Source of the DNA: Mucilaginibacter psychrotolerans | Lineage (GTDB): Bacteria > Bacteroidota > Bacteroidia > Sphingobacteriales > Sphingobacteriaceae | Assembly: GCF_004519315.1 (NCBI RefSeq) | Contig: NZ_SOZE01000010.1 | Location: forward strand, 1-64,000 | Length of the DNA stretch: 64,000 nucleotides | Reading direction: 5' to 3' | Part shown: positions 58,255 to 62,496 of the stretch, one piece after another | How the letters are laid out: each line of letters starts with the position of its first letter | How positions within the stretch are numbered: position 1 is the stretch's first letter | Translations under genes and position numbers: made by a program | The notes under the pieces: model-generated | The model's input: the letters and a program-made list of their open reading frames with translations, nothing else | Database searches by the model: none | Told to the model about the DNA's origin: nothing

Positions 58255-59949
58255 ATGGCTATCAGCAGAAAAGATTTGTTCGGGTACACCCCCGACCCGG
58301 CATACGCATTGCCCGTTGCGTATTTTTCCATGGAGTTTGCTATCGATCAGGCGCTGAAGATCTATAGCGGCGGGCTGGGATTTCTCTCAGGATCACACCT
58401 CAGAAGCGCATTTGAATTGAAACAAAATCTGATTGGTATAGGTATTTTATGGAAATACGGTTATTACGACCAGCAAAGAGACCGTAACGGGTTTATGAAA
58501 CCCGGTTTCGTAGAGAAGGAATATTCATTTCTGCAAGATACCGGCATCCTGTTCACCATAACCGTGCATAACGCGCCGGTTCAGGTGCGTGCTTTTCTGC
58601 TCCGTCCCGAAACCTTCGGCACCGCGCCGTTGTTTTTGCTGAGCACAGATATCCCGGAAAATGACGAAGAATCACGTTCTATTACGCATTGTCTTTATGA
58701 TGCCAACGAGGCCACGCGTATTGCTCAAAGTATGGTTTTAGGTATCGGCGGCGGAATGCTGCTTGATCTATTGGAACTTACGCCAGCTATCTATCATCTT
58801 AATGAAGGGCACGGCGTGGCGCTGAATTTCTACCTGTATGAAAAACATAAGACCCTGGCGGAGGTGCGTAAGCGGGTAGTATTTACCACCCACACGCCCG
58901 AAACAGCAGGCAACGAAGAACACAGCTTTGAACTGCTCGGGGAGATGTCTTTTTTCTATCACCTAAGTATACAGGAGGTTCGCTCGCTTTTAAAAATGGA
59001 AACCTTTAATTATACACTTGCTGCCCTGAAGTTTGCCCGTAAGGCTAACGGCGTTTCCAAATTACATGGCGAAATAGCGCGTAAAATGTGGGCCGGATAT
59101 GAAGGGGTTTGTGAGATCACGTCGATCACTAACGCGCAAAATAAAAACTATTGGGTGGATGAAGTGATCGGGCAGGCCATCGCTCAAAACGACCGCCCGG
59201 CTTTCAATTCACGTAAAACAGCACTCAAAAAACAATTGTTCAAAATAGTGGCAGACCAATGCGGTATGCTTTTTGATGAACGCAAGCTGACGATTGTTTG
59301 GGCCCGGAGATTTGCAGGTTACAAACGCGCAGACCTGATGATGCAGGATTGGGATCGATTTCTGAAACTGATTGGGAACACCCAATATCCGGTACAGGTT
59401 ATCTGGGCGGGTAAACCCTATCCCGAAGATGCGGAAGGCATTGCGCTGTTCAACCAGATCATTGGTAAAGCCAGGCCGTTGGCCAATTGTGCCGTACTAA
59501 TCGGCTACGAACTGGCTTTATCAGCTTCCCTTAAAAAAGGTGCCGACGTTTGGCTCAATAATCCACGGATGTATCATGAAGCCTCGGGTACGAGCGGGAT
59601 GACCGCCGCCATGAATGGCGCGGTTAATTTATCGATGCCTGATGGCTGGGTGCCGGAATTTGCCAGGGACGGTGAAAACTGTTTCCTGATCCCAACCGCG
59701 ATTAAGGAACAGCCGGTGGAGCAAATGGACCGCGATGAAAACAGCAATTTGATGGCTACGCTGGAAAAAACGGTATTACCCGCTTATTATACCAAACCTG
59801 ATCAATGGTTTAATATGGTTAAGCAAGCAGCTGCGGATGTGGATCCGGCGTTTGAATCGGCCCGGATGGTGCGGCAATATTATGAATTGATGTACAAGAC
59901 AGTTCTGCCGGAAGAAACTAAAGAACAGATGCAGCTGGCCTTTGAATAA
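58255..59949 (+). CDS. Alpha-glucan phosphorylase-like enzyme (GT35), PLP-lysine position changed
   Basis: The protein has 564 residues. It aligns with the short alpha-glucan phosphorylase group: PVAYFSMEFAIDQALKIYSGGLGFLSGSHL, LNEGHGVALNFYLYEKH, VFTTHTPETAGNEEHSFE, VWARRFAGYKRADLMM, and the C-terminal HEASGTSGMTAAMNGAVNLSMPDGW. In phosphorylases with PLP, the lysine stands at the position of Thr450 (GTSGMK or GTGNMK); here it is threonine. The enzyme may therefore act as a glycosyltransferase without PLP or be catalytically different. It heads a plus-strand group with a patatin and a HAD-ATPase. Confidence 0.85.
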   Translation: MAISRKDLFGYTPDPAYALPVAYFSMEFAIDQALKIYSGGLGFLSGSHLRSAFELKQNLIGIGILWKYGYYDQQRDRNGFMKPGFVEKEYSFLQDTGILFTITVHNAPVQVRAFLLRPETFGTAPLFLLSTDIPENDEESRSITHCLYDANEATRIAQSMVLGIGGGMLLDLLELTPAIYHLNEGHGVALNFYLYEKHKTLAEVRKRVVFTTHTPETAGNEEHSFELLGEMSFFYHLSIQEVRSLLKMETFNYTLAALKFARKANGVSKLHGEIARKMWAGYEGVCEITSITNAQNKNYWVDEVIGQAIAQNDRPAFNSRKTALKKQLFKIVADQCGMLFDERKLTIVWARRFAGYKRADLMMQDWDRFLKLIGNTQYPVQVIWAGKPYPEDAEGIALFNQIIGKARPLANCAVLIGYELALSASLKKGADVWLNNPRMYHEASGTSGMTAAMNGAVNLSMPDGWVPEFARDGENCFLIPTAIKEQPVEQMDRDENSNLMATLEKTVLPAYYTKPDQWFNMVKQAAADVDPAFESARMVRQYYELMYKTVLPEETKEQMQLAFE

Positions 59950-59953
59950 GATA

Positions 59954-60715
59954 ATGAATAATATAGGTTTGGTACTTTCTGGTGGCGGTGCGAGAGGAAT
60001 CTCCCATCTCGGCGTGTTGCAGGGACTGGAAGAAATGGGTATCAGCGTAAAGATCATATCTGGCGCCAGCGCCGGTGCAGTGATTGGCGCGCTTTATGCT
60101 GCGGGTTATACCCCAGGGGAAATATTAAGTCTTGCGAAAGCTCATACGCCCAGGAGTTTGATAGCTGCTGTAATGAGTTCCGGCGGCCTTTTCTCACCGC
60201 AGGTTTTAAAAGGTGTATTGATCGAAGCTATACCGCAAAATAGTTTTGAGTCTTTGAAAACCCCGTTAATGGTAACGGCTACTGATTTAGCCAACTGCAG
60301 CAGCATCACTTTCTCTGCGGGTGTGCTGCATGAGGTACTGGTTGGCTCGGCGGCGATCCCGGCCCTGTTCGAACCTGTTGTTTTGGAACAACGGCTGCTG
60401 GTAGACGGCGGCGTGTGCAATAATTTCCCGGCAGATTGCCTGTCGGGTAAATGCGATAAGATCATCGGATCTCATGTAAATAAACTGCTGAATAGTAGCG
60501 GCGGGAAATTGTCAAGGCTTCAGGTGTTGGAACGTTGTTTCCATTTGGCAATTGCAGAAAAGGTTGCCGCCCAGGCCAAATATTGTGATGTTTTGATAGA
60601 GCCGCTGCTGCCTCACTATAATATGTTTGAAATGAAACATGCAGACGAGATTTTCGACATCGGCTACAACGCAGTAATGGCGCAAAAGGAAAGTGTTTTG
60701 CAGCTGGCTGATTGA
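59954..60715 (+). CDS. Patatin-like phospholipase
   Basis: The ATG at 59954 gives 253 residues; an earlier TTG overlaps the previous stop. The oxyanion loop GGGARG is at about residue 9, the nucleophile elbow GASAG at about 37-41, and the catalytic Asp in DGGVCNNFPAD near 150. These are the Ser-Asp dyad features of patatins, which cleave acyl chains of membrane lipids. There is no signal peptide, so it is likely cytoplasmic. It follows the glucan enzyme gene by four bases, hence is co-transcribed. Confidence 0.9.
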   Translation: MNNIGLVLSGGGARGISHLGVLQGLEEMGISVKIISGASAGAVIGALYAAGYTPGEILSLAKAHTPRSLIAAVMSSGGLFSPQVLKGVLIEAIPQNSFESLKTPLMVTATDLANCSSITFSAGVLHEVLVGSAAIPALFEPVVLEQRLLVDGGVCNNFPADCLSGKCDKIIGSHVNKLLNSSGGKLSRLQVLERCFHLAIAEKVAAQAKYCDVLIEPLLPHYNMFEMKHADEIFDIGYNAVMAQKESVLQLAD

Positions 60716-60795
60716 TAGAATCATAGGGTCAGCTTTTGGCGGTTAGCTTTCCGCGACCGGCAACAAACGATATTTACACTAATCAGCAGGCATTG

Positions 60796-62496
60796 ATGCG
60801 CTATCATATACTAACAACGGATTACGACGGCACGCTTGCAGAGGATGAAATGGTCTCCGAAGCTACCCTGCAGGCGCTGGTTAGGCTTAAAGCCACCGGG
60901 AGGACGCTCATTTTGGTCACCGGTCGGGAGCTGTATCAACTACAGTTGATCTTTTCGGAGTACACCATATTTGATCTGATCGTTGCGGAAAACGGTGCGC
61001 TCATCTACGATCCTCGCACGCTGAAAAAGATATTATTGGGTGAACGCCCGCCTGAGGCATTTATTCAGGCGCTAAAAGACCAAGGCATTCCGCTTTCGGT
61101 CGGCGAGGTTATTGTCGCAACCTGGGAACCGCATCAGCAACTGGTGCTGGAAGCCATTAAAGCAGCCGGGCTGGAGCATCAACTGATATTTAACAAAGGC
61201 GCAATCATGATTCTGCCCCCCGGCGTTAACAAAGCCACCGGCCTGCATCAGGCACTTAAAGAACTGCACATGTCTGAACACAACACGGTAGCTGTGGGTG
61301 ATGCGGAAAACGATAACGCAATGCTGCAGGCGGCCGAGTGCGCCGTTGCCGTGGGTAATGCCCTGCCACAGTTAATGGCTAATGCAGACTGGACAACTAA
61401 GGGCCAGCGTGGCGAAGGCGTTGCCGAGTTGATTGGCCAGATGATGCGGGATGACCTGGCCATGCTGGATACAAAATTATCAAGGCACTACCTCGAAATA
61501 GGTGAAAAAATTGATGGTGCCGAATTTAAGATAAGCCCGTACGGAAATAATATTTTACTGGCAGGTACATCAGGCTGTGGCAAAACTACGCTGGCAGCTG
61601 CCTTTATAGAAAAGCTTATAAAAGGGAAGTACCAATTTTGCTTGATTGATCCGGAAGGCGACTACCAGGACCTTGCCGGTGCCATTACCATCGGCGACGG
61701 AAGCCACGCCCCGCTGATCGATCATGTGGTAAGAGTGCTCAGTATTCCCGCAGAAAATGCCATCGTTTCTTTCCTGGCAATACCATTGACGGAACGTCCT
61801 GTTTATTTCAAAAAGTTGCAGGTCGCCTTGTCAGCTCTGCGAAAACAAAGTGGTCACCCTCATTTTATCATCATCGATGAGGCGCATCATTTGCTGCCAA
61901 AAGATAACACGGAAAGCTTTAATGATTTTCCTGAAGATTTCACCAATGTGTTTGCCATTACCACGCAGCCGGCACTGCTTTGCCCCGACTTTTTAAAGCG
62001 GATCAATATCATGCTGGCGATGGGAGAAACGCCCGCACAGCAGATTGCTGAATTTGCCGCAATTTCCGGTGACGCGCTAGCCTTGCCGGATCTTCCTGAA
62101 CTTCACAAAAGGGATGTGCTGGTCTGGCAAAAAGAAACGTGTGGTTTCACTGTCATCAACGGCATTGAGCCGGGTAAATTTCTGATGCGGCATAAGCGCA
62201 AGTATGCCAGCGGCGACATGTACGCCAATAGTTTTTATTTTACCGGTCCAGCAAAGCGGCTTAACCTGAAAGCCAATAACCTGATGATCTTTATACAGAT
62301 GGCGGCTGGTATAGATGACGAAACCTGGCTATACCACCTGCACAGGCACGATTACTCAAAATGGTTTCTGAATGCCGTTAAAGACCCTAAACTTTCCAGG
62401 GGTGCTGAGGCAATCGAAAATAATGAACCCAATGCGGATCTGTCAAGGAAGGCGATCTTCAGCCTGATCCTCAACAGGTACACGCTTTCTGCTTAG
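60796..62496 (+). CDS. HAD-IIB hydrolase fused to a HerA/DUF87-like ATPase
   Basis: The ATG at 60796 gives 566 residues; an earlier TTG would add 20 unrelated residues. Residues 1-220 are a Cof-type HAD phosphatase: TTDYDGTLAEDE (Asp9 and Asp11), LVTGRE, and GDAENDNAML for the last motif. Residues about 245-470 are a P-loop ATPase: Walker A GTSGCGKTT (257-265), CLIDPEGDY, and Walker B FIIIDEAHH (Asp361, Glu362), similar to HerA/VirB4-type DUF87 ATPases. A C-terminal tail follows (VINGIEPGKFLMRHKRKYASG). The combination is unusual. The role is unknown; it is in line with the patatin and glucan genes upstream. Confidence 0.85.
   Translation: MRYHILTTDYDGTLAEDEMVSEATLQALVRLKATGRTLILVTGRELYQLQLIFSEYTIFDLIVAENGALIYDPRTLKKILLGERPPEAFIQALKDQGIPLSVGEVIVATWEPHQQLVLEAIKAAGLEHQLIFNKGAIMILPPGVNKATGLHQALKELHMSEHNTVAVGDAENDNAMLQAAECAVAVGNALPQLMANADWTTKGQRGEGVAELIGQMMRDDLAMLDTKLSRHYLEIGEKIDGAEFKISPYGNNILLAGTSGCGKTTLAAAFIEKLIKGKYQFCLIDPEGDYQDLAGAITIGDGSHAPLIDHVVRVLSIPAENAIVSFLAIPLTERPVYFKKLQVALSALRKQSGHPHFIIIDEAHHLLPKDNTESFNDFPEDFTNVFAITTQPALLCPDFLKRINIMLAMGETPAQQIAEFAAISGDALALPDLPELHKRDVLVWQKETCGFTVINGIEPGKFLMRHKRKYASGDMYANSFYFTGPAKRLNLKANNLMIFIQMAAGIDDETWLYHLHRHDYSKWFLNAVKDPKLSRGAEAIENNEPNADLSRKAIFSLILNRYTLSA

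Follow-up and report, generated by a model that had tools for sequence, protein, structure and literature searches.

Findings

The window analysed here is a 64,000-nucleotide stretch of the Mucilaginibacter psychrotolerans genome (contig NZ_SOZE01000010.1, positions 1 to 64,000). It contains an uninterrupted open reading frame on the forward strand that starts with an ATG at 58255, ends with a TAA at 59949 and comprises 564 codons plus the stop. The 564-aa product belongs to TIGR02094, the alpha-glucan family phosphorylases, with 426.8 bits where the cut-off is 191.7; with the Pfam Phosphorylase profile it reaches 46.8 bits, above the Pfam cut-off. Its score against TIGR02095, the profile of the GT5 glycogen synthase GlgA, is 40.4 bits and thus below the cut-off of 328.45; the GT3 synthase domain (PF05693) is absent from its Pfam matches and from the window's genome as well, and Glycos_transf_1 (GT4) is matched weakly by 10 of 49 members of the clade described below. 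By profile score, the protein is neither a GT5 nor a GT3 synthase; by sequence, it is classed as a TIGR02094 homologue that is devoid of the lysine defining PLP-dependent phosphorylases. The block around this site reads EASGTSGM-T450-AAMNG, confirming the sequence-only reading, which had placed Thr450 at the PLP-lysine position of the GTSGMK block; the codon is ACC, at 59602-59604 (Table 1).

Two further genes follow on the same strand. An ORF for a patatin-like phospholipase (59942-60715) starts only a few bases from the studied gene's stop codon, an arrangement suggestive of co-transcription in the window's genome; no patatin homologue was found near the gene in 80 related loci. Beyond it, a 586-aa ORF (60736-62496) encodes an N-terminal HAD-IIB phosphatase of the Cof type joined to a C-terminal HerA/DUF87-like AAA ATPase, a fusion that looks unusual.

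Table 1. The lysine-less gene and its diagnostic residues in the window
Feature	Position	Strand	Description
PLP-lysine-less TIGR02094/GT35-like gene	58255..59949	+	564 aa (P0001); ORF call, TIGR02094 score, AF2 model
G39-G40-L41, N-domain glycine loop	58369..58377	+	Invariant in Thr- and Lys-type clades
H213	58891..58893	+	Conserved in both clades
N293	59131..59133	+	Conserved in both clades
R351-R352-xxx-Y356-K357-R358, phosphate-binding block	59305..59328	+	Conserved in both clades
K387-P388-Y389-P390	59413..59424	+	Clade-specific change: GKPYP vs GKAHP in Lys types
G417-Y418-E419	59503..59511	+	GY vs NY/DY in Lys types, from the alignment; GY aligns with GlgA too
E442-ASGTSGM-T450 block	59578..59604	+	Catalytic-site Glu retained; Thr (ACC 59602-59604) replaces PLP lysine

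Relatives of the protein were collected in a scan with one genome per species, and the best 80 matches all came from Bacteroidota, to which the lysine-less branch is, among these matches, so far confined. Position 450 is Thr in 75, Ala in two, Ser in two and Lys in none of the 79 Bacteroidota orthologues with a readable frame, which are 55-72% identical to the window protein; two plasmid copies, from Pontibacter and Runella, have Thr as well. Across all aligned clade members the residue is Thr, Ala or Ser and never Lys (82/82). Lysine is found at this position in 42/42 aligned TIGR02094 relatives from six phyla (Bacteroidota, Proteobacteria, Chlamydiota, Cyanobacteria, Actinomycetota and Deinococcota) and in 8/8 phosphorylases of the TIGR02093 group. 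An orthologue alignment had been proposed as the way to learn whether Thr is the rule in a subfamily, and with Thr, Ser or Ala throughout some 80 orthologues this is the case. A sequencing error or the recent decay of a single gene has next to no probability, given the same residue in 75/79 independent loci, intact frames and dN/dS values far below 1, and a single-genome mutation is likewise ruled out by the clade-wide pattern and the dN/dS values.

In a sample of 148 genomes of the phylum, 20/20 places in the window's class that exceed the TIGR02094 cut-off have Thr- or Ser-type codons, and in a sample of 247 genomes of the class the Thr/Ser motif occurs in 22 and the Lys motif in 23, the carriers belonging to different families. 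No genome with both types was seen in either sample. The exclusion in the class sample (23 Lys, 22 Thr/Ser, 0 both) has an estimated probability of about 1 in 10 by chance, tracks families and is weak alone. One genome of the same genus as the window (G099; L178, L180, L181) carries the gene twice, with Thr in one copy and Ser in the other, which is divergent. The Mucilaginibacter gossypiicola copy (L053:6001-7637), whose match length is not divisible by three, probably contains a frameshift or an assembly error.

In a maximum-likelihood tree, the Thr/Ser/Ala proteins form one clade (SH-aLRT 100) with a very long stem of 1.92 changes per column, and the Lys-type TIGR02093 and TIGR02094 groups fall outside it. 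Since a single state change suffices on this tree when TIGR02093 serves as the outgroup, the sequences indicate that lysine is the ancestral state and that it disappeared in a single ancient event, at the root of a clade that spans Bacteroidota. Within the clade, dN/dS of close pairs is 0.01-0.18, which points to strong purifying selection, and an alignment of 49 members has over 100 invariant columns. The earlier impression that the gene is not obviously decayed is thus upheld by these values and by the conserved catalytic residues.

Both clades keep, with few or no exceptions, G39-G40, H213, N293, W300, R351, R352, Y356-K357-R358, Y418, E442 and T446-S447-G448. We take G39-G40 to be the counterpart of Gly134-Gly135 of muscle phosphorylase, H213 that of His377, N293 that of Asn484, R351-R352...K357 that of K568-R569...K574, E442 that of Glu672 and Y418 that of Tyr648, which packs on PLP. 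The site for the glucosyl unit and the substrate phosphate (Gly135, His377, Asn484, Arg569, Lys574 and Glu672) is accordingly present as G40, H213, N293, R352, K357 and E442. In Escherichia coli MalP, the ligands of the PLP phosphate are K534, K540 and K554 (PMC11046441), and by homology to MalP and muscle phosphorylase the conserved residues are predicted to include those that bind the glucosyl unit and both phosphates, that of the substrate and that of PLP. R351, which corresponds to a residue touching the PLP phosphate in phosphorylases, is kept, and the aligned GlgA position is non-basic.

The other side of the site is different. The changes facing the would-be pyridoxal ring are K450T, the replacement of N/D417 by Gly and of N/D419 by Glu on either side of Y418, and GKAHP to GKPYP (386-390); in addition, TNGVH has become TNAQN, HTPVPAGHD has become HTPETAGNE and DGWW has become DGWV, with G294A, H296N, D47S and W466V/I as further clade changes. 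In the alignment about 40 positions conserved in Lys types are changed in the clade. The sequence-only reading had held the other family blocks to be intact, which is correct for the catalytic blocks and incorrect for several blocks that are invariant in Lys types. The pattern of an invariant phosphate side and a changed ring side leads us to the view that, as far as sequence can tell, the phosphate-binding floor has been retained and the pyridoxal-ring pocket rebuilt. No substitute lysine is apparent in the C-domain pocket from the clade alignment and predicted secondary structure: of the invariant lysines specific to the clade (K35, K88, K321 and K427), K427 is predicted to lie in helix 420-429, at its far end, and the other three appear, from sequence position and predicted secondary structure, to be outside this pocket. 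The sequence-only reading had named a PLP-binding lysine elsewhere in the fold as grounds for giving up its proposal, and no candidate for one is apparent near the site. The nucleotide-binding lysine of the GT5 KxGGL motif is absent too, the corresponding residues 37-41 being YSGGL.

An AlphaFold2 model (49 clade members; mean pLDDT 87.7) has the GT-B fold of glucan phosphorylases. The closest known structure is that of the Lys-type glycogen phosphorylase from Segatella copri (9l6i; Z 34.0, rmsd 2.5 A over 532 residues), followed by E. coli glycogen synthase with ADP (3cop, 2qzs; Z 31.7 over 439), MalP (Z 31.0 over 536) and muscle glycogen phosphorylase (Z about 29). With a profile of Bacteroidota GlgA the clade averages 10.0 bits and the Lys types 0.5, and in hhalign profile-profile comparisons with GlgA the clade scores 28-42, short Lys types 0.4 and long Lys types 12-40. 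The clade thus seems slightly more GlgA-like on average than the Lys types, with a range that overlaps that of the long ones, which is a hint only; as proof, GlgA-likeness was set aside on account of this overlap.

The window's genome is 99.8% complete, and a genome scan revealed no second GT35-like gene and hence no hidden copy of the Lys type. Full-length GlgA, GlgB and GlgC are encoded separately elsewhere in this genome, and MalQ and GlgX are absent from it. With the GT35-like gene unique and GlgA, GlgB and GlgC provided by other loci, the synthase slot of this genome is taken and its phosphorylase slot is empty. Gene co-occurrence was compared across 37 genomes of the window's class, 19 with and 18 without the clade. 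A GlgA or GT3 synthase is present in 16/19 genomes with the clade and 9/18 without (Fisher p 0.04, kinship ignored), MalQ at E<=1e-20 in 9/19 versus 0/18 (p 0.001, kinship ignored), GlgX in 2/19 versus 0/18, and phosphoketolase in 2/19 versus 0/18, one of the two adjoining the clade gene; kinship is ignored in the last two counts as well. The clade-bearing genomes with no recognised GlgA or GT3 glycogen synthase are G076, G111 and G118. The last of these encodes, next to glgC, a 401-aa protein that resembles GlgA but scores well short of its cut-off (G118:C1:3036700-3038200, L155), possibly a different type of glycogen synthase. All class genomes sampled match GlgA, many of them by way of a separate protein, about 260-316 aa long, that covers the N-terminal GlgA half only (for example G000:C21:63490-64167, L156); a conserved GlgA-GT5 fragment in Bacteroidetes has been mentioned (PMC11046441).

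Gene neighbourhoods offer metabolic context in Sphingobacteriaceae (phosphoketolase, universal stress proteins) and Pontibacter (type II GAPDH, DUF1622) only. In nine Mucilaginibacter and Pedobacter loci the clade gene is preceded on its own strand, at a distance of 0.1-2.1 kb, by a phosphoketolase gene, and phosphoketolase adjoins short Lys-type genes in Criblamydia and Leptolyngbya; the type II GAPDH and DUF1622 genes that precede the clade gene in Pontibacter are also found beside Lys-type genes. Outside these two groups the neighbours are not sugar-metabolism genes, and an operon logic shared across the clade was rejected, as the neighbours are mostly unrelated. Because of the genome content and the neighbours held in common with Lys types, the clade gene seems to occupy the place of a Lys-type phosphorylase, with the synthase slot filled by others, and the genomic context leans slightly towards the phosphorylase slot. 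In Chitinophagaceae-type loci (L052, L054-L056, L060, L062, L063, L068-L070, L072, L075-L078), a conserved gene for a putative lipoprotein of about 330 aa lies 91-318 bp upstream on the same strand; the one member scanned has no Pfam match. Most of these loci also have mntH 1-2 kb upstream, and eight have an mntR-like gene.

Possible functions

Since the lysine has been lost throughout the clade and no substitute is apparent near the site, covalent PLP is very unlikely, and the protein very probably lacks it as far as the sequences allow a judgement. We also consider it probable, from sequence conservation, that the protein is an active transferase, most likely one that acts on alpha-1,4-glucan, be it by phosphorolysis or with a nucleotide sugar. 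The earlier proposal of a PLP-free glycosyltransferase is in part borne out: the loss is ancient and fixed, no substitute lysine is apparent, and a working enzyme is supported by the catalytic residues and dN/dS.

The explanation that we tentatively favour on these sequence data is glucan phosphorolysis, or glucose-1-phosphate transfer, with no covalent PLP. The protein would be a catalytically active GT-B enzyme whose ancestor, an alpha-glucan phosphorylase dependent on PLP, gave up the PLP anchor in a single event. It would act in a catabolic slot on the non-reducing ends of an alpha-1,4-glucan, presumably glycogen or maltodextrin, and transfer glucosyl units between glucan and phosphate, with the substrate phosphate held by R352, K357 and the GGL loop. 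In the old pocket of the PLP 5'-phosphate, formed by R351, K357 and the N-terminal end of helix 446-453, there would now be a free anion, perhaps inorganic phosphate, or a non-covalently bound phosphate compound; an anion is expected there because R351 is kept at a position that is non-basic in aligned GlgA. Catalysis in GT35 uses the phosphate of PLP and not its aldehyde (PMC6411801, PMC11046441). Parrish et al. 1977 (cited in PMC12018205 and PMC6411801) reportedly examined how phosphate analogues affect pyridoxal-reconstituted phosphorylase, for which PMC12018205 is the source as an early example of chemical rescue, so that a free anion in the PLP-phosphate pocket has a chemical precedent. 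Against this explanation, the very long stem and the roughly 40 changed positions exceed simple cofactor loss and hint at a new reaction; the slight GlgA-likeness, the unrelated neighbours and the lack of MalQ and GlgX in the window's genome also count against it.

Alternatively, although we think it rather less than likely, the protein could be a nucleotide-sugar-dependent alpha-glucan (or other) glucosyltransferase in which a nucleotide occupies the pyridoxal site after the loss of the lysine; Y418 would then contact the base, while R351, R352, K357 and the GTSG helix would hold the NDP phosphates. The ring-side pocket changed in concert (K450T, N417G, 419E, GKAHP to GKPYP), as would fit such a replacement, and G417-Y418 resembles the GY of GlgA, in which the Tyr stacks on adenine. 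The GlgA-profile and hhalign scores, a model as close to the ADP-bound E. coli synthase as to MalP, and a stem long enough to imply a change of function favour the same reading, which also fits the proposal that PLP took the place of a nucleoside monophosphate in proto-GT35 (PMC11046441). On the other hand, 16/19 clade genomes already have a GlgA or GT3 synthase, the GT5 KxGGL lysine is absent (YSGGL), R351 persists at a position that is not basic in GlgA, long Lys types reach overlapping GlgA scores, and the fold comparison covers a Thr-type model alone. A return to nucleotide-sugar chemistry, or its new acquisition, by a clade of the glycogen-phosphorylase family that abandoned PLP seems unlikely to us.

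A non-catalytic protein that has kept the fold for glycogen binding or regulation is improbable. In favour of such a pseudoenzyme, the residue that holds the cofactor is gone and three clade genomes have no recognised synthase, but H213, N293, R352, K357, Y418 and E442 are invariant or nearly so in 82 sequences, not all of which binding alone would need, and residue 450 stays small. Still more improbable is an ordinary phosphorylase that binds PLP through another lysine or tightly and non-covalently. The Schiff base is dispensable for the chemistry in muscle phosphorylase, and Y418, W300, the counterparts of the PLP-phosphate ligands and four clade-specific invariant lysines are all in place; yet the predicted positions of K427, at the far helix end, and of K35, K88 and K321, outside the C-domain pocket, are unfavourable, and the ring-side residues N417, H389 and D/N419 have changed too.

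The GT35 phosphorylases are a textbook PLP family and an unusual one, in which the phosphate of the cofactor is catalytic rather than the aldehyde. An old and widespread clade without the anchoring lysine would offer a direct natural test of the job of PLP in phosphorylase. It would also put to the test the idea of a proto-GT35 enzyme in which PLP took over from a nucleotide (PMC11046441); if the nucleotide-sugar reading were true, the step by which GT35 is proposed to have arisen from an NDP-sugar enzyme would have been reversed, a natural reverse experiment. The 'glycogen phosphorylases' of the clade are probably misnamed: records of the kind 'glgP, alpha-glucan family phosphorylase' (e.g. 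Pontibacter, Runella) carry an activity name for which we found no experimental support, and such misnaming affects glycogen-metabolism models and counts of PLP enzymes. For the window protein, too, the name glycogen phosphorylase is best reserved until an assay backs it. A search of open-access literature, which left out most subscription papers, yielded no account of GT35 proteins that lack the lysine as a clade.

Comparison with known systems

The Lys-type TIGR02094 glycogen phosphorylase of Segatella copri (PDB 9l6i, 20yr) shares with the window protein the GT-B fold, 30% identity, the EASGTSG and RR-YKR blocks and the HTP, TN and GGL motifs. It differs in having Lys in GTSGEK, in being about 290 residues longer, and in its GKAHP, NY/DY, TNGVH and DGWW where the clade has GKPYP, GY, TNAQN and DGWV. 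The short Lys-type TIGR02094 proteins of Proteobacteria, Chlamydiota and Cyanobacteria are similar in length (about 565-620 aa), have no long N-terminal extension, are 31-34% identical and in some genomes have phosphoketolase, GAPDH II or DUF1622 neighbours, whereas they carry Lys at the PLP position (8/8) and fall outside the Thr clade in the tree. E. coli MalP and muscle glycogen phosphorylase (TIGR02093) are alike in fold and catalytic residues and unlike in their PLP lysine and large regulatory and N-terminal additions, with 16-21% identity to the clade protein. GlgA (GT5; 2qzs, 3cop) shares the GT-B fold, the E, R, K, H and N site residues and the GY motif; in contrast to the clade, it is an ADP-glucose enzyme with the KxGGL lysine and E-x7-Tyr (E-x7-Thr in the clade), at 16-18% identity. 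The GT4 trehalose phosphorylases, compared here by mode of action, have a GT-B fold and contain no PLP. They belong to another family and act on trehalose, and resemble the function that we tentatively favour for the clade in being retaining phosphorylases (PMC8950772).
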